A stretch of DNA of 64,000 bases. It comes from a virus. The stretch covers positions 1-64,000 of IMG/VR virus record IMGVR_UViG_3300046694_000296. One strand, written 5' to 3'. Both the position numbers and the translations under genes were made by a program. This document shows, piece by piece, positions 40,676 through 49,954 of this stretch; the first letter of the stretch is position 1; each line of letters starts with the position of its first letter. Below the pieces are notes generated by a model. That model did not search any database, was not told the DNA's origin, and saw only the letters and a list, made by a program, of their open reading frames with translations.

Positions 40676-41095
40676 TTATTTGTCTGTTCGCTTGTTGTAA
40701 TCCTTCAGAACATGGCGAATTGCTCCATTGAACTCAGGATCGTCAAAGTCCACGTCAGCACCTTTGAGCTCTTCCGAGACTATCCGCTGGAAGTCTTTCT
40801 GCGATTTCGTCACGAACTTGTCGCCGAGCACCTCGTCGATGACCTTCCATGCATCCGGCATGTATTCGTTCATCACGAGCTTCAGTAAGTGCGCCGGATC
40901 GACTCCCAACACGATCGCCATTGCTCGGACCTTGTTGATCGGCAGCTTGGTCTTGCCTTGCTTGAACAGCGTGATGACGTTGCGGTTCGGATATTCGAGC
41001 GCATCGCATATCTCAGCCTGCGTCTTGCCGCTCAAGTCGATCGCGCGAGTGATGTATTCCGCCACCGAGAGTGGCTGCTGTTTCTTCGTGGTCAT
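40676..41095 (-). CDS. XRE-type transcriptional regulator, candidate immunity repressor
   Basis: 139 residues. The helix-turn-helix lies at about residues 24-52 (KTQAEICDALEYPNRNVITLFKQGKTKLP). The rest is helical and acidic-basic mixed, without the peptidase domain found in LexA/CI-type repressors, so induction by self-cleavage is not expected. The gene is single, on the - strand, and reads from a region with a degenerate copy of the dispersed palindrome (41111-41128). That makes it the prime candidate to bind that family. The alternative is a simple plasmid copy-control protein. Confidence 0.65.
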   Translation of the reverse strand: MTTKKQQPLSVAEYITRAIDLSGKTQAEICDALEYPNRNVITLFKQGKTKLPINKVRAMAIVLGVDPAHLLKLVMNEYMPDAWKVIDEVLGDKFVTKSQKDFQRIVSEELKGADVDFDDPEFNGAIRHVLKDYNKRTDK

Positions 41096-41110: not shown

Positions 41111-41128
41111 TTAGTAATTAGTGACATA
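41111..41128 (-). promoter_or_regulatory. Dispersed palindrome on - strand, before the XRE gene (copy 12)
   Basis: Read on the - strand it is TATGTCACTAATTACTAA, two to three bases off the family consensus, followed by TAACAAT. Fits autoregulation of the XRE gene. Confidence 0.55.
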
Positions 41129-41280
41129 CAGATTGTGAGAACAAATTGGTAACCGCTAACTTTCCCTCATGTGTTTGATTATAGAACGCAAAATTGGTTG
41201 CCGAGAAAAAAACACTGCCGATGCTGATGGCGATGCTGTTTGCTGAAGTTGCATCGTGTTCGGTCGCGCACACTACAATA

Positions 41281-41298
41281 TAAGTTAGACGTTACATA
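41281..41298 (+). promoter_or_regulatory. Dispersed palindrome, copy 13
   Basis: TAAGTTAGACGTTACATA in the divergent gap, upstream of the + strand block, followed by AACAAGTGACG, an extra half site. Confidence 0.65.
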
Positions 41299-41337
41299 AC
41301 AAGTGACGTAATTCTAACCCTACCGAGGAGTTGCCTG

Positions 41338-41650: not shown

Positions 41651-43954
41651 ATGCAGGTGAACAATCGTGTCCTCGTGATGCGCGAGGCGATCACCAAAAT
41701 TGTGCCGATGTTAACTCAACGCTCAGTGCGCGTGACGCAGCAAGGCACGCAAGCATTCGTTGAATACCACGGGACCACGCTGGAGGTGAAGCGCGTCAAC
41801 CTGCCGTATATCCCCGAAGACGCCAGCGACCAACTGCTCGACGCGACGCAGGGCTTCCTCGATCACGAGGTCGGCCACGTCCTGTTCACCGAGCAGCGCT
41901 TTGTGAAAAAGGCCGCGAAGCTCAAGGTCCACTCGCTGCACAACATGGTCGAGGACACGTTCGTCGAGCGGAAGATGGGCGAGAAGTTTCCGGGCTGCGG
42001 CTCGAACCTGACGCGCATGCACGGGTTCTTCCTCACCGAATACATCGACACTCAGCTCGCCGAAAAGCCCGAGCACTCAGCCGCAATCCTGATGGTGGTT
42101 GCGATTCGTGCATGGGCGGGCCAGCCCGCCTTCGTCGACTACATGAAAGACAAGTGGGAGTTGATGAAGGACGTCGTTGACCGTCTCGGTGCCGACTTCC
42201 CGAAGATGGTCCGGGGCGTAGACAGCACCGAGCAGGCGCTCAAGGTCGCGATCGAAGCGAAGAAGCGCCTCGAACCGAAACCGCAGCCGACGCCGCCCGC
42301 GCCGCCGATGACCCCGCCGCCGGCACCGCCCGAGCCGCCGAAGTCGAGCACGCCGCCCGAAGAGCCGCAAGAACCGCAGCAGGGCGGCCAGGGTGACGGC
42401 GAGCCCGACGAGGAAAACGAGAACGACGAGCCGCAGCAGCCCAACGACATGCCGAACTTGGGCGAGCCGGAACCCGAGCAGAGCGCGCCGAGCACCCCGC
42501 AGCCGGAAGGTGACGACGAGGACGACGAACCGAAGGGTGAGGAAGAACAGGAGCCCAACGGTGAGGAGGTTCAGGAGCCGGAACCCGAGCCGACGCCCGA
42601 AGCGGGTGACGAGGAAGACGAGCCCGCACCTGCGCCGAGCAACGAAGCGGGCGATGAGTCCGACGAGGGCGAAGGTGACGACAGCGACGACGAGGATGAA
42701 AACTCGAGCGGTGGCATGTCGGGCGAGGAAGGGGAGAACGACAGCGACGCCGAAGACGAAGGTGCACCGAGCGGCGCGGGTGACGGTCTGCCCGGCGGTG
42801 AGCAGTCTGAGGACAGCGCCGAGAGTGACTCGGGCGACGCAGGTGGTGAGGACGAGAACGGGGCCGGTCAGCAGGACGCGGGCGACCAGCACGGTCACGG
42901 CACGCCGGAAGCAGGGGAGGGCGATCCGACCGGTGGGCGCGATCCGAACGACGATCGCGACTTCATGAAGGAGCTCGAGGACGCTGATATCAAGGAGTTC
43001 GACGAGGCTGCGGCCGAAGCGCTCTCGAAGCAAGCCGTCGAAGCGACCAAGGGCGCGGATTACACCGTGTTCACCCGCGATGAGGACGTGATCGGCGTGC
43101 TCGAAGTGCCGGAGGAGTTCGGGCAAGAGACGGTCACGCACATGCAATCGAAGGTGGACCACATGATCGGCCCGCTCCAGAAAGACCTGCAGCGCGCCAT
43201 TGCTGCCCGCTCGCAAGCAATCTGGACAGGTGGGCACCGGCGCGGCCAGCTGCACGGTGCCTCGCTTGCCCGCGTGCTGACCGGCCGCGAAGACGTGTTC
43301 CGCCAGAAGCAGGTGTCGCGCACGAAAGACGTCGCCGTGTCGCTGCTCGTCGATGGCTCGGGCTCGATGTGGCAGCACGGCAAGATCAAGGTGGCCTCAT
43401 ACGCCGCGTATGCGCTCTCGGCCGTGCTCGACAACATCGGCATCACCAACGAGGTGCTCGCCTTCAGCACGAACGAGTTCAGCTACGGCACGCTCAAAGC
43501 GATGAGCGAGGAGGCCAGCCAGCACCGCCTGCGTTACTCGCGGGGCGCCGCACTTGAGATCCGCATCCTCAAGTCGTTTGCTGAGCGCATGACGCCGATC
43601 GTGCGCCGTCGCTTCGCGCTGCTCTCGCAGGGTGATGCAATGATGCAAGAGAACGTCGATGGCGAGAGCGTGCAAATCGCGAACCACCGTCTCCAGCAGC
43701 AGCGCGCGACGCGCAAGGTGATGATGGTGCTCTCGGACGGGATGCCTGCGGTCAACGGGCACCGTGCCCCGATCCTCGCGAAGCACCTCAAAGAGGTCGT
43801 CAAGCAGATCGAGAAGCGCGGCACCGACGTCGTAGCGCTCGGCATTCTCGACCCGTCGGTTAAACAGTTCTACGACCGCGCGCTCGTCCTGAATTCGGTC
43901 GAGGAGCTGCCGTCGCTGGTCATGAAGGAACTTCACCGCCTCCTGGTGCAGTAA
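41651..43954 (+). CDS. CobT-like VWA protein with HEVGH metallopeptidase-type N-terminus
   Basis: 767 residues from ATG 41651 (AGGGGAA upstream; an ATG two codons earlier is also possible). N-terminal domain has HEVGH (72-76) and downstream NMVEDTFVE (98-106), the spacing of a zinc peptidase with a Glu third ligand. Residues about 210-440 are a very acidic Pro/Asp/Glu linker. C-terminal 230 residues are a von Willebrand A domain with the MIDAS motif DGSGS (from D568). The pair with the next AAA+ gene parallels CobT/CobS and MoxR/VWA chaperone systems, not cobalamin synthesis, as no other corrin gene is present. Confidence 0.75.
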   Translation: MQVNNRVLVMREAITKIVPMLTQRSVRVTQQGTQAFVEYHGTTLEVKRVNLPYIPEDASDQLLDATQGFLDHEVGHVLFTEQRFVKKAAKLKVHSLHNMVEDTFVERKMGEKFPGCGSNLTRMHGFFLTEYIDTQLAEKPEHSAAILMVVAIRAWAGQPAFVDYMKDKWELMKDVVDRLGADFPKMVRGVDSTEQALKVAIEAKKRLEPKPQPTPPAPPMTPPPAPPEPPKSSTPPEEPQEPQQGGQGDGEPDEENENDEPQQPNDMPNLGEPEPEQSAPSTPQPEGDDEDDEPKGEEEQEPNGEEVQEPEPEPTPEAGDEEDEPAPAPSNEAGDESDEGEGDDSDDEDENSSGGMSGEEGENDSDAEDEGAPSGAGDGLPGGEQSEDSAESDSGDAGGEDENGAGQQDAGDQHGHGTPEAGEGDPTGGRDPNDDRDFMKELEDADIKEFDEAAAEALSKQAVEATKGADYTVFTRDEDVIGVLEVPEEFGQETVTHMQSKVDHMIGPLQKDLQRAIAARSQAIWTGGHRRGQLHGASLARVLTGREDVFRQKQVSRTKDVAVSLLVDGSGSMWQHGKIKVASYAAYALSAVLDNIGITNEVLAFSTNEFSYGTLKAMSEEASQHRLRYSRGAALEIRILKSFAERMTPIVRRRFALLSQGDAMMQENVDGESVQIANHRLQQQRATRKVMMVLSDGMPAVNGHRAPILAKHLKEVVKQIEKRGTDVVALGILDPSVKQFYDRALVLNSVEELPSLVMKELHRLLVQ

Positions 43955-43993
43955 ATCTTCCCGCAGGTGAATCACTTTGCCTGCATAGGATAG

Positions 43994-44034
43994 TAAGTGG
44001 TGACTTGACGTAGCCAAGAGTAACCACTTACTAT
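43994..44034 (+). promoter_or_regulatory. Inverted pair of palindrome half-sites with -35 TTGACG
   Basis: TAGTAAGTGGT and ACCACTTACTA form an 11-bp inverted repeat (43991-44001, 44024-44034). Between them lie TTGACG (44005-44010) and, 18 bases on, TACTAT (44029-44034). This is a variant of the dispersed element with a real -35. Confidence 0.65.
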
Positions 44035-44089
44035 TTCACCTGTAGCGAATCACAACCAATTTTAATTTTTCTCTGCATCGGAGGATTCA

Positions 44090-45301
44090 ATGAGCGATAC
44101 CGGCGACAAGATCTCTTGCCAGGAGTGCGGCGCGCTGACCCACGCGATCCAGTTGCACCTGCCGGAAGCCCACCCGGGCATGACCCTCGCCGACTACCAG
44201 GCGAAGTTTCCCGAAGCACCTGTGCTGTCCGAGCGCGCGAAAGCCGAGCTCGAGCGCCAGCGTGTCGCAAAGGCCGCTGCAGCGCCCGCAGTCACCGCCT
44301 CGATGGCCGGTAGCGCGCTGCCCGCTAACGTGGTCGCGCTGAACCCCGACGGCAAGACGACCGCCGCGATGCACGAGATCTTCGGCTTGGTCGATGGTCA
44401 TGGGAAACCTGTCGCAGCTGCCTTGAGCTCGCGCAAGGAACCCGTGCCGGTCACGATCTTCGCCTCCCCGCGCGACGCCGACATGGTGCCCGAGATCGAC
44501 GCAGGCTTCATTTTCGACATCGAAAACCTGAAGAATGCGCTGATGGCGATCGAGCTCCGCAAGAACCTCTACGTGTGGGGTCACGCCGGCACCGGTAAGA
44601 CGACGCTGATCGAACAGGTCGCGGCGCGCACCGGGCGTCCGGTCATTCGGGTGCAGCACTCGATCGGCACTGAAGAGTCGCACGTCCTCGGTCAGTGGGT
44701 GGTGCGTGGCGGGCAGACCGAGTTCCAGCCGGGCTTGCTCCCGCTCGCGATGCGCAACGGGTGGACCTACCTCGCGGACGAATACGACTTCGGTAACCCC
44801 GCGGTCCTCGCGGTCTACCAGCCGATTCTCGAACCGGGCAAGAGCCTGGTCATCAAGGATGCGCCCGACGAATGGCGCGTCGTGAAGCCGCACGAGAACT
44901 TCCGCTTCGTCGCAACGGGCAACACCAACGGTTCCGGTGACGACACGGGCCTCTATCAGGGCACGCAGATTCAGAACGCCGCGAACTACGACCGTTTCGG
45001 GATGGTCCTCGAAGCCGCCTACATGAAGCCGGAGCTCGAGTCGGCGATTCTCGTGCAGCGCTGCCGGATTCAGAAGAAGAACGCCGACTCGCTGGTCGAT
45101 TTCGCAAACCGCGTGCGCGAAGCCTACAAGAACAAGGAGATCGGCAGCACGATCTCCCCGCGATGCCTGATCGACGCGGCCGACATCGGTCTGCGACGCG
45201 CGAACTGGCGCGCGGGCGTGACGCTCTCCTTCATCAACAAACTCTCTGCGGTAGACCGCGCTGTCGTCGACGGCGTTGCATCGCGCATCTTCGACAAGTA
45301 A
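44090..45301 (+). CDS. cobS: CobS-like AAA+ ATPase (MoxR class) with zinc finger
   Basis: 403 residues. Residues 8-46 form a MucR-like finger: C10, C13, H23, H28 followed by GMTLADYQAKFPEAPVLS. AAA+ core: Walker A GHAGTGKTT (164-172), Walker B around YLADEYDF, sensor FVATGNTNG. CobS-type hexamers drive a VWA partner, here the gene just upstream. Phage CobS proteins have been noted in other lineages; the client is unknown. Confidence 0.85.
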   Translation: MSDTGDKISCQECGALTHAIQLHLPEAHPGMTLADYQAKFPEAPVLSERAKAELERQRVAKAAAAPAVTASMAGSALPANVVALNPDGKTTAAMHEIFGLVDGHGKPVAAALSSRKEPVPVTIFASPRDADMVPEIDAGFIFDIENLKNALMAIELRKNLYVWGHAGTGKTTLIEQVAARTGRPVIRVQHSIGTEESHVLGQWVVRGGQTEFQPGLLPLAMRNGWTYLADEYDFGNPAVLAVYQPILEPGKSLVIKDAPDEWRVVKPHENFRFVATGNTNGSGDDTGLYQGTQIQNAANYDRFGMVLEAAYMKPELESAILVQRCRIQKKNADSLVDFANRVREAYKNKEIGSTISPRCLIDAADIGLRRANWRAGVTLSFINKLSAVDRAVVDGVASRIFDK

Positions 45302-45306
45302 TCGGA

Positions 45307-45324
45307 TAAGTAACAGGTAACTAT
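45307..45324 (+). promoter_or_regulatory. Dispersed palindrome, copy 14, over the sigma-like start
   Basis: TAAGTAACAGGTAACTAT runs into TATCAT, whose last bases are part of the ATG at 45326. A transcript from here would lack a leader, so this copy is more likely an operator than a promoter for that gene. Confidence 0.6.
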
Positions 45325-45325
45325 C

Positions 45326-45964
45326 ATGCAATTGGCCCAATCGACTGTAACGAATGCCCGCACCTCCACGCGCTACGAGGACCACACGGGGATGCTGCAC
45401 AAACTGGCAAAACGCGGCTGGGGCCGGTTGCAGGAGGCAGGGCTCTCCCTGCCTTACGACGACGTGTTCCAGCAGATGTGCGAGTCGTTCGTGAAGTGTC
45501 AGGCGACCTACAAGGCTGACACCGGCTTCACGTTCTCGGCGTATTACGGTCGCTCGATCTGGAACAACTTCAACAAGTGGGCCGAGCGCCAGATCGAGGA
45601 AAAGCACACGCTTGGCCTCGTCTCGGTCGAGTCGCTGTGCGGCGCTGACGATGAAGGGGAGGGCGACGCCTACGAATTCATCGAGCAAGAGGACGAAGAC
45701 GACACGCCCGAAGATCGCCTGGCCGCGCGTCAGGAGAGCCACCGGCTCGCCCGCATGCTCTCGGACGACGCGAAGCGCATGGTGGCGCTGCTCGCGCACC
45801 AGACCCCGGCGCTTGAGCGCTGGATGGAGGAGCGCAACGCCCGGATGCTCAAGAAGACGCATCACATCAATCTGTGGCTGCTCGGCGAGTTCCTCGGTTT
45901 CGACCGCAACAAGACGAGCCGCCTGCGCCTGGAGCTCGAACGCGTCTACGGCGTGGAGCTGTAA
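45326..45964 (+). CDS. Sigma-70-like factor
   Basis: 212 residues. Residues about 45-90 match sigma region 2: DDVFQQMCESFVKCQATYKAD, TGFTFSAYYGRSIWNNFNKWAE, with the FxxY and WxxN pattern of the core-binding and -10-contact helix. An acidic linker (DEGEGDAYEFIEQEDEDD) follows, then a region-4-like helix-turn-helix at the C-terminus (WLLGEFLGFDRNKTSRLRLELERV). It could switch transcription to phage promoters. Divergent enough that a DNA-binding protein of another kind cannot be ruled out. Confidence 0.65.
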   Translation: MQLAQSTVTNARTSTRYEDHTGMLHKLAKRGWGRLQEAGLSLPYDDVFQQMCESFVKCQATYKADTGFTFSAYYGRSIWNNFNKWAERQIEEKHTLGLVSVESLCGADDEGEGDAYEFIEQEDEDDTPEDRLAARQESHRLARMLSDDAKRMVALLAHQTPALERWMEERNARMLKKTHHINLWLLGEFLGFDRNKTSRLRLELERVYGVEL

Positions 45965-46609: not shown

Positions 46610-49600
46610 TTGAATATCAAGCATCTGCTTTCCGCGAGGTCGGACTTCTCGCTCGGGGAGTCCACGCTGCAGGTCGGCACCCTGATCGAAACCGCGAAGG
46701 CACAGGGTTACGAGACGGTTGCGCTGGTGGACAACATGTCCATCTCCAACATGGTCGCGTTCACGGACAAGGCGAAGAAAGCGGGGATCAAGCCGATCGT
46801 GGGCTGCACGATCCGCATGGTCGACGATCCGACCTACCGCAAGCCGCCGAAGGCGTCGGGCGAGGTCGAGCGTCCGAACCCGCTCGTCATGCTCAAGGTC
46901 TACGCGAAGACCGACGCGGGCCTGCGCAGCCTCATGAAGCTGCTCTCCAAGGGCAACAGCCCGGAATACTTCTACTATCACTCGCGGGTGGGCCTCGAGG
47001 ACGTGCTGCAGCTGGAAGAGTGCGCGGTCGCGACCGGTGACTTCTACGGCCTGTTCCATCACAAGCGGTGGGAGGAGATCGCGTATCGCCTGAGCGAGAA
47101 GTTCGGCCGCGACTTCTGTGTGGAGTTCGTGCCCGGCGCGACGCCGCTGCACAAGACGCTCAACAAGCTCGCGCTCACCTGCCTCGACCGCTTCACCGCG
47201 ACGCCGATCGGCACCTGGCCCGCGCTCTATGCGACCGACGATCAGGCCGACAGCCTCGACGTGCTGCGCGCGATTCTCGGCAACAACAAGATGACCGACC
47301 GGTGGCTGAACAAGCCCTACCTGCGGAACTTCTCGGTGCGCGCGCCGGGCGATCTGGTGAAGGCGCTCGTCGCCGAAGGCTTGCCCGCGAAAGAGATCAT
47401 CAAAGGCAACCAGGCGCTTGTCGATTCGTGCACGTTCGAATTCAAGAAGCTCGACCCGTGCCTGCCGAAGATGGCAGAGGACGAGTTCAAAGCGCTCTGC
47501 GCCGAAGTCGCGAAGGGCTGGGCGCAACGCTTTGCGGCGCCCGTGCTCGGGCACAAGCCGGAACCCGAAGAGCTGCCGCAATACAAAGCGCGGCTCGCCT
47601 ACGAGCTCGACGTGCTCCGCAAAATGGGCTTCTCGGGCTACTTCCTGCTCGTGCAGCACATCGTCCAGTGGAGCAAGCAAAACGGAATTTTGGTCGGTCC
47701 CGGCCGCGGGAGCGTTGGCGGTTCCCTCGTCGCTTACCTGATGGGAATCACGGACGTCGATCCGATCCGCTTCAATCTGCTGTTCGAGCGCTTCATCAAT
47801 CCGGAGCGTCTCGACTTGCCCGACGCCGACCTCGACTTCATGTCCAAGCGCCGGCACGAGGTGATCGATTACATCGCCACTCACTTCGGGCGCGAGAACG
47901 TCGCGGGCGTGTCCAACTACAACACGATGGGCGCCGCGGGCGTGATGCGCGATACGTCGCGTGTCCACGAACTCAACCCGTTCGACTATGCCTGCTCGAA
48001 GCAGATGGAAAAGCAGCACGGGGTGTCGCTCTCGCTGGAGGAGTCGGCCGCGATCGTGCCAGAGATCGACAAGTTCAAGGGCAGCTTCCCGGACATTTGG
48101 AAGCACATGGTGAACCTCGAAGGTGCCGCGCGCGGTCTTGGGCAGCATGCAGCGGGCGTCATCGTCGCGGGCGAGCCGATCGTCAACCGCGCCGTGGTCG
48201 AAACCCGCACGGGCGGGCCGGTCTGCAATTGGGACAAGCGAACGGTCGAGGACTTCGGGCTCATCAAGATGGACATTTTGGGCTTGACTAACCTCGACGT
48301 GATGAAGCTCGCCGCCGACTACATCAAGGAGCGGCACGGCAAGACGATCGACTTCCTGCGGCTGCCGCTCGACGACAAGAAGGTGCTGGAAGCATTCGGG
48401 CGGGGCGACACCACGGGCGTGTTCCAGTTCGAGTCGCCCGGCATGCGCCGGCTCTTGCGTGAGATGGCGCTATCGGGCGCGGTGACGTTCGACGATCTGG
48501 TGGCGGTGGTCGCGCTGTATCGCCCGGGTCCGCTCGACGCGGGTCTGTGCGACGACTACGTGGCGATCAAGCAGGGTTCCAAGCAGCCGTATTACGAGCA
48601 CCCGAACATGGCCCCTGCGCTCAAGGACACCTACGGGGTGATCGTGTATCAGGAGCAGGTGATGCAGATCGCGCGTGACCTGGCGGGCTTCTCGATGGCG
48701 GGCGCCGACCATCTGCGTAAAGCGATGGGTAAGAAGGACAAGGAGAAGATGGCCGAAATGCGCGACAAGTGGGTGGCCGGTTGCGTGTCGCACTCGGGCA
48801 TGACCGAAGGCTCGGCCAATGCGCTCTTCGACAAGATCGAAGTGTTCGCCGGATACGCCTTCAACAAATCGCACTCAGTGGAGTATGCGGTCATCAGCTG
48901 GTGGACGATGTGGCTGAAGGTCAACTACCCGGCCGAATACTTTGCGGCCTCGCTCACTGAGATCGACAAAGAAGAGAAGCGCGAGCCGCTCGTGCAGGAT
49001 GCGCGGCGCATGAGCATGCAGGTGTTGCCGCCCGATATAAACCGGTCAAGCGCCCGGGTAGAGATCGTGGGCGAGGATAAGCTCTACGCCCCGTTCCAGG
49101 CGCTCAAGGGTTTATCCGAGAAGGCGGCAGGCTACATCGTAGACGCACGCATAAAGTGGGGCAAGCCGTTCGCGAACCGCACCGACTTCGACGCCGCAAT
49201 GAAGGCGGCAGGCTACACCGGCCGGCACATCAACCAGGCGGTCAAGGACAAACTCGTGCTGATCGGTGCCTTCGCCGAGTGCGAGGGCGACAAGGTGCCC
49301 GCCATGCACCCCGATCGGCTGAAAAACCGCATCGAGCTACTGCCAGGTTTCACGGTCGATACTGTGAAAGCTGACCGAACGCTTAACGCTGAGCACCTCG
49401 CCTTGCTGCAATTGGTGCGCATCGGTGAGGAGACGCGCTCGTGCGAGAAGTGCTCGCTCAAGGGCGGCTGTCACCCGATGCCGCGCATCGGGAAGACGCC
49501 GAAGTTCATGGTCGTGTCCGACAACCCGAACTGGCAGGAGGAAAAGGCAGGGAAGCTCCTCGAAGGCGATAACGCGAAGCTCGTCATCAACGCGTTGAAG

Positions 49601-49954
49601 GAAGCGGGGCTCTCGGCACAGGACGGGTATTTCACGACGCTCGTGAAGTCCGGCAAGCCGAAGGATCAGAAGACGCTCACGAACGAACAGATCAACGGTT
49701 GCTCCGAATACCTCAAGCGCGAGCTGGAGATTCTCAAGCCGCCGGTGGTCGTGACACTCGGGAGCAACGCGGCGCGCTTCTTTGCGCCGGGCGTGAAGGG
49801 CGGCTCGATGGAGCTCGCGGGCAAGGTCATCTTCGACCCGAAGCTCGACGCCTCGATTGTTTTTGGCATCAACCCGGGGCAGATTTTCCATGACCCGGGC
49901 AAGTATTCCGTTTTGCAAACCGTGGCCGCGAAGGTGGCCGACCTTATCACCTGA
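46610..49954 (+). CDS. dnaE: DNA polymerase III alpha-type (DnaE) fused to UDG-4-like domain
   Basis: 1114 residues. A PHP domain (residues 1-200) has lost most of its metal ligands. The polymerase core carries the palm PDADLDF (D407 and D409 as metal ligands) and GPGRGS. Residues about 905-1114 are a separate domain: CEKC (C945, C948), VVSDNPNWQEEKAGKLL, VVTLGSNAARFF and another Cys at 1031, like family-4 uracil-DNA glycosylases; the usual catalytic GE.PG motif is altered to SDNPN. Cellular DnaE ends with OB and tau-binding parts, which this fusion replaces. It is the phage replicative polymerase; the UDG-like domain may be a DNA scanner rather than an active enzyme. Confidence 0.85.
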   Translation: MNIKHLLSARSDFSLGESTLQVGTLIETAKAQGYETVALVDNMSISNMVAFTDKAKKAGIKPIVGCTIRMVDDPTYRKPPKASGEVERPNPLVMLKVYAKTDAGLRSLMKLLSKGNSPEYFYYHSRVGLEDVLQLEECAVATGDFYGLFHHKRWEEIAYRLSEKFGRDFCVEFVPGATPLHKTLNKLALTCLDRFTATPIGTWPALYATDDQADSLDVLRAILGNNKMTDRWLNKPYLRNFSVRAPGDLVKALVAEGLPAKEIIKGNQALVDSCTFEFKKLDPCLPKMAEDEFKALCAEVAKGWAQRFAAPVLGHKPEPEELPQYKARLAYELDVLRKMGFSGYFLLVQHIVQWSKQNGILVGPGRGSVGGSLVAYLMGITDVDPIRFNLLFERFINPERLDLPDADLDFMSKRRHEVIDYIATHFGRENVAGVSNYNTMGAAGVMRDTSRVHELNPFDYACSKQMEKQHGVSLSLEESAAIVPEIDKFKGSFPDIWKHMVNLEGAARGLGQHAAGVIVAGEPIVNRAVVETRTGGPVCNWDKRTVEDFGLIKMDILGLTNLDVMKLAADYIKERHGKTIDFLRLPLDDKKVLEAFGRGDTTGVFQFESPGMRRLLREMALSGAVTFDDLVAVVALYRPGPLDAGLCDDYVAIKQGSKQPYYEHPNMAPALKDTYGVIVYQEQVMQIARDLAGFSMAGADHLRKAMGKKDKEKMAEMRDKWVAGCVSHSGMTEGSANALFDKIEVFAGYAFNKSHSVEYAVISWWTMWLKVNYPAEYFAASLTEIDKEEKREPLVQDARRMSMQVLPPDINRSSARVEIVGEDKLYAPFQALKGLSEKAAGYIVDARIKWGKPFANRTDFDAAMKAAGYTGRHINQAVKDKLVLIGAFAECEGDKVPAMHPDRLKNRIELLPGFTVDTVKADRTLNAEHLALLQLVRIGEETRSCEKCSLKGGCHPMPRIGKTPKFMVVSDNPNWQEEKAGKLLEGDNAKLVINALKEAGLSAQDGYFTTLVKSGKPKDQKTLTNEQINGCSEYLKRELEILKPPVVVTLGSNAARFFAPGVKGGSMELAGKVIFDPKLDASIVFGINPGQIFHDPGKYSVLQTVAAKVADLIT

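Follow-up and report, generated by a model that had tools for sequence, protein, structure and literature searches.

A zincin-like VWA protein and a CobS-like AAA+ ATPase encoded side by side in an SSU5-like phage-plasmid: a plausible motor-protease pair outside the cobalamin pathway

We analyzed two adjacent genes in a 64,000-base stretch of viral DNA (positions 1 to 64,000 of IMG/VR record IMGVR_UViG_3300046694_000296; hereafter, the window), which sits within an SSU5-like phage-plasmid and is part of a 215,656-base virus record. The first gene (41651–43954, plus strand, ATG at 41651) encodes a CobT-like protein of 767 amino acids with a zincin-like motif and a VWA domain, matching PHROG 1576 with an E value of 5e-179, and the second (44090–45301, plus strand, ATG at 44090 and stop at 45301) encodes a CobS/MoxR-type AAA+ ATPase of 403 amino acids. 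A first-pass annotation of the sequence had read the pair as an unassigned phage machine in which the motor drives a protease, and its coordinates, residue numbers (H72-E73-V-G-H76 and D568) and gene order proved correct.

The N-terminal zincin-like domain of the VWA protein (residues 1 to 205; 41651–42265) matched the CobT N-domain family PF06213, as did 51 of 51 phage N-domains. An AlphaFold2 model of residues 1 to 215, with a predicted local distance difference test score of 89.8 and a predicted template-modeling score of 0.82, comprises three strands, a helix (residues 60 to 79) that carries HEVGH (H72, E73 and H76; 41864–41878), and a second helix (residues 94 to 112) that carries N98-x2-E101-D102-x3-E106 (41942–41968). 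The modeled domain fits a zincin core, in which E101 is likely the third metal ligand, a putative role; E101 and E106 were present in 55 of 55 relatives. The domain is followed by a 255-residue acidic, proline/glycine-rich linker (42266–43030), with 34% aspartate plus glutamate and 3% lysine plus arginine over residues 209 to 458, and then by a CobT-type VWA domain (43295–43948). Pfam CobT_C covers residues 549 to 766 of the protein (E value of 2.7e-32), and D568 opens the DGSGSM of an intact metal ion-dependent adhesion site (MIDAS), whose D568-G-S-G-S and D696 were invariant in 58 relatives. In the viral structure library BFVD, the N-domain matched phage and haloarchaeal VWA/CobT proteins, and SprT-like zincins appeared as weak matches only.

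Conservation of the motif was assessed in two samples. The first was drawn from viral and genome contigs, and one of its search patterns contained the HE motif, so that conservation was overstated; 56 of 58 proteins in this broader, motif-biased sample possessed HExxH. The second was collected with VWA patterns only, HExxH being left unused, and gave 55 non-redundant proteins, one of them truncated ahead of the motif. H72, E73, H76 and E101 were all present in 53 of the 54 complete relatives, the sole exception reading QEVAK as in Acinetobacter phage-plasmids, and HExxH was retained across proteins down to 28% identity, occurring also on the CobT-like proteins of Roseobacter CRP-810, Vibrio ICP2 and Gordonia Monty. 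Since these residues are kept in relatives found through the VWA domain, HEVGH is not a chance motif. The ratio of nonsynonymous to synonymous substitution against the closest relative (L011) was about 0.1 for the N-domain, about 0.19 for the VWA domain and 0.12 for the AAA+ protein; the pair is under strong purifying selection.

The AAA+ protein matched the Pfam families AAA_5 (E value of 3.4e-17) and CbbQ_C (3.5e-7). Within its Walker A motif GHAGTGKT (G164 to T171; 44579–44602), G164, G167 and K170 were invariant in 52 relatives, as was the Walker B pair D230-E231 (44777–44782). Thus, an AAA_5 plus CbbQ_C ATPase with both Walker motifs adjoins a VWA gene with an intact MIDAS, as in MoxR-class pairs, and an AAA+ relative was present at nearly all loci. 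The earlier proposal, in which a VWA protein bearing a zincin-like motif is coupled to a CobS-like AAA+ motor, is borne out. The finger C10-x2-C13-x9-H23-x4-H28 (44117–44173), previously described as MucR-like, gave a sub-threshold Ros/MucR match, with an E value to ROS_MUCR (PF05443) of 0.013 for the whole protein and 8e-4 for its first 87 residues. A PDB sequence search with these 87 residues, allowing E values up to 5, returned the Ros DNA-binding domain 2jsp (E value of 0.13) as the sole match. C10 was found in 48, C13 in 38, and both H23 and H28 in 43 of the 52 relatives. The N terminus of cyanophage CobS proteins (L007, L008 and L166) appeared helix-turn-helix (HTH)-like, again below threshold (HTH_23 E value of 0.029 in S-SSM5), hinting that differing DNA-binding heads may sit on one motor.

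Papers repeatedly class viral cobS and cobT with the auxiliary metabolic genes for vitamin B12, and a cobalamin role of viral CobST, whose clusters were described by Liu et al. 2021 (PMC8651126), was proposed in that study; it is also the common annotation. Viral CobST would then recruit host CobN and boost cobalamin synthesis, consistent with the homology of the pair to CobS/CobT and with the presence of the CobN family in Synechococcus elongatus, in which our control search was positive. However, both proteins scored far under the equivalog cut-offs (107 versus 759 bits for CobT, TIGR01651; 144 versus 558.6 bits for CobS, TIGR01650), and CobN was not found in the 215,656-base record or in 18 of 26 bacterial genomes with the pair, among them Xenorhabdus, Morganella, Buttiauxella, Kluyvera and Desulfovibrio. 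On these grounds we rejected cobaltochelatase membership, and the pair lies outside the cobalamin pathway, as the first-pass annotation had implied. Moreover, no chelation role is known for the conserved HExxH, and we regard the cobalamin explanation as extremely improbable. We are largely confident that the pair is a motor with a zincin-like adaptor and not a chelatase.

The pair is not confined to phages, contrary to what had been supposed. Its closest matches were SSU5-like phage-plasmids of Rhizobium, Pseudomonas, Acinetobacter, Klebsiella, Aeromonas, Salmonella and E. coli, and the order cobT-cobS-(small genes)-dnaE was retained in the SSU5-like relatives examined in full. IncC conjugative plasmids and loci resembling integrative and conjugative elements (ICE-like loci) carry it as well. 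The IncC block reads AAA+ – ssb – bet – exo – DUF3150 – VWA, and among the plasmids matching a related V. fluvialis protein, 946 of 1,075 were conjugative. Desulfovibrio-type loci contain the AAA+ gene, often DUF3150, and also Erf, a RecE-like exonuclease and primase; one such ICE-like locus has Tra genes. DUF3150 recurred as the third member of a trio with the AAA+ and zincin-VWA genes on plasmids and ICE-like loci (L161, 4651–5928; L009, 4415–5863); it was found in 6 of 63 scanned neighbor proteins and was not seen in phage-plasmids. In Listeria phage P70, a CobS-like AAA+ protein is present, but none of the three neighboring open reading frames checked (gp52, gp54 and gp57) has HExxH.

In the window, the pair is surrounded by genes for a helicase, a ligase, a ParA-like protein, an HTH regulator, a sigma-like protein, an exonuclease and DnaE. 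Across loci, the neighbors (polymerase, ligase, helicase, clamp, SbcCD-like nuclease, Bet/Exo and Erf/RecE) mostly serve replication or recombination. These data bear on a role in virion assembly, which Iyer et al. 2021 (PMC7824862) proposed for a pair of the same architecture in group 2.2 jumbo phages, a MoxR AAA+ protein with a vWA cochaperone that bears a metallopeptidase at its N terminus, citing a MoxR-vWA requirement in archaeal-virus tail assembly. The MoxR-vWA unit would fold or assemble tail or head proteins and the metallopeptidase would process structural proteins, and cobS belongs to the core genes of T4-like cyanophages. Yet neither IncC conjugative plasmids nor ICE-like loci bearing Tra genes make virions, and both carry the pair, whose phage copies lie in replication/recombination modules; we consider a virion-assembly role quite unlikely here. 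For both reasons we lean toward clients in nucleoprotein complexes. Since the architecture of a motor with a vWA-metallopeptidase has already been proposed for jumbo phages, and viral cobST has been described too, the pair is not entirely unassigned.

Taken together, we favor, with moderate confidence, a MoxR-class AAA+ remodeling machine with a zincin-like adaptor/peptidase. In it, the 44090 protein would assemble into a ring powered by ATP, with the 41651 protein as its adaptor/peptidase. To judge from CobST, NorQD and midasin, the VWA MIDAS may dock on the ring or on the client, and the flexible acidic tether would bring the zincin-like N-domain within range of the client, which it would cleave in most lineages. 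We infer metal binding, proteolysis, physical coupling of the two proteins and action on nucleoprotein complexes, the presumed clients. The N-domain is probably an active, if putative, peptidase in this phage. The replication/recombination neighborhood and the Ros/MucR-like finger would link the machine to DNA, and the chances that its clients belong to DNA replication or recombination are about even.

Several observations weigh against this interpretation. HExxH is replaced by SEISK or SEIAK in Nickievirus, by QEVAK in the Acinetobacter phage-plasmids and by REVST in Stenotrophomonas phage BUCTxx99, and two contigs have HEVAR; cleavage is thus dispensable in those lineages, and catalysis is not universally required. 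On the supporting side, histidine loss was accompanied by coupled decay at other motif positions (D102 to S in Nickievirus; N98 to S and D102 to E in Acinetobacter), while the MIDAS was kept. A PDB fold search with the N-domain gave no significant match (75 matches, the best with an E value of 0.79, treated as noise), YfcM occurred among the matches only at a probability of ≤0.10, and phmmer against the PDB returned chance matches only, so that zincin membership rests on the motif and the secondary structure. The finger scored 19.9 bits in the first 87 residues, under the PF05443 cut-off of 25.4, and cyanophage CobS proteins are devoid of it. Gene neighborhood is indirect evidence of function, and the neighbors in Gordonia phage Monty were uninformative. 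Deletion of SXT s067, s068 and s070, which adjoin bet/exo and are candidate relatives of the pair, lowered transfer 10-fold or less (PMC2791158). Our literature search found no functional study of the pair, and the SXT deletions are suggestive only.

The losses raise an alternative in which the N-domain docks but does not catalyze, the complex acts purely as an AAA+ remodeler, and HExxH is kept for structure or metal binding. HExxH has disappeared in at least three lineages that keep the MIDAS and the AAA+ protein, genuine CobT has an N-domain without it, and E73 and E106 persist even where the histidines are gone. This alternative nevertheless has to accommodate HExxH in 53 of 54 proteins down to 28% identity, alike in phages, IncC plasmids and ICE-like loci, and we hold it to be unlikely. 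The motor-driven protease of the first-pass annotation stands as a reasonable inference, and its HEVGH is conserved in nearly all relatives; the losses in Nickievirus, the Acinetobacter phage-plasmids and BUCTxx99 run counter in part to the conservation on which that annotation made its proposal depend. As the protein is otherwise retained there, the N-domain must do more than proteolysis. We consider the motor-protease reading plausible and a better fit to the evidence than the B12 label, with a putative catalysis that is not universal. The protease, scaffold and chelatase readings could be told apart by point mutations in a histidine, in the glutamate or in the MIDAS.

Two copies of the palindrome AAGTNACNNGTNACTT lie 5′ of the AAA+ gene (43991–44033, plus strand) and overlap a sigma70-like promoter at 44005–44034; relatives also have palindrome copies between cobT and cobS. 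A hairpin between the two genes (z of −4.6) is no terminator, and we read it as paired operators. In the window, AAGTNACNNGTNACTT occurs at positions 778, 4043, 4614, 17382, 23396, 23820, 28169, 31519, 32729, 43991 and 44018, and further at 45308, 50669, 55251 and 55715, mostly intergenic and often followed by TATACT/TATAAT; its extended form GGATAAGTNACNNGTNACT gave 20 hits versus 0.47 expected. The set resembles genome-wide operators or stoperators of a phage repressor. A divergent HTH regulator gene (40676–41095, minus strand), which likely encodes such a repressor, adjoins degenerate palindrome copies at 41112–41309, and the same order was found in an Acinetobacter phage-plasmid. The palindrome, present at many intergenic sites, and the divergently oriented HTH gene together point to control by a repressor and to expression of the pair in the lytic phase. 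This early-type position beside a putative repressor, and carriage by unrelated phages and conjugative plasmids, could also suit a counter-defense or host take-over machine that unfolds or cleaves a host defense or nucleoid protein. However, no defense-related neighbor or partner was seen (PADLOC was not run), and the pair is kept throughout several phage groups. Most anti-defense genes are not kept in this manner, and such a role seems very unlikely.

Directly 3′ of the AAA+ gene lies a gene for a weakly sigma-70 region 2-like protein (45326–45964, plus strand), and RHEph10 has an annotated sigma factor at the equivalent position. The DNA polymerase III alpha subunit (46610–49954, plus strand) bears a C-terminal family-4-like uracil-DNA glycosylase (UDG) domain (UDG Pfam E value of 5.7e-13), and the same polymerase-UDG fusion is annotated in RHEph10. 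The 215,656-base record itself seems to consist of two related but distinct phage genomes of ~107 kb, head to tail: the window (1–64000) and the stretch at about 107–215 kb were 83 to 90% identical where sampled, and the ends of the record match each other over 127 bases. Such a record would be either a cointegrate or an assembly fusing two coexisting phages. Y. pestis pMT1 is named as an SSU5-related type.

Comparison with known systems places the pair among related machines. CobS/CobT (PDB 9uka series and 21vu) has the same domain order, a homologous N-domain and the same VWA and AAA+ families, but Sphingomonas CobT reads DAFALR at the site of the phage DHEVGH and the solved relative 9uka_G likewise does not have HExxH, a sign that the peptidase-like domain of CobT may be a degenerate one; moreover, cobaltochelatase CobS/CobT works with CobN, which the phage-plasmid record does not contain. 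Cyanophages S-PM2, P-SSM2 and S-SSM5, and also pelagiphage HTVC008M, encode a "peptidase" (T4-GC 146) with HEVGH, N-x2-ED and a VWA MIDAS just upstream of cobS (T4-GC 150); they differ in a finger-less AAA+ protein, a diverged VWA and a location between gp46/47 and gp45/44. IncC plasmids share an N-domain with HEAAH...NVLEDCRIE (HEAAH in pKAZ3), a low-complexity linker, the VWA domain and the CobS-like AAA+ protein, but have an extra DUF3150 partner, ssb-bet-exo separating the AAA+ gene, and no virion. Taken as a whole, the evidence argues that the pair works on proteins, not corrins, and is common to phages and IncC, a major resistance-plasmid group. A broader proposition, which we hold as doubtful, is that one mobile-element family of zincin-VWA proteins and CobS-like motors acts on protein-DNA complexes in phage and plasmid replication/recombination, with CobST sharing its ancestry through a peptidase-dead N-domain; if it were true, hundreds of phage "cobS/cobT" vitamin B12 genes would be misannotated. 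The group 2.2 jumbo-phage pair (ASV44728/ASV44729), compared by its description, likewise joins a MoxR AAA+ gene to a vWA gene with an N-terminal metallopeptidase; that description makes no mention of CobS/CobT, while the present pair differs in its SSU5-like phage-plasmid, its Ros/MucR-like finger and its relatives on conjugative plasmids. Under the broader proposition, the action of zincin-VWA proteins and their motors on protein-DNA complexes would be comparable in logic to that of Wss1/SPRTN with Cdc48.

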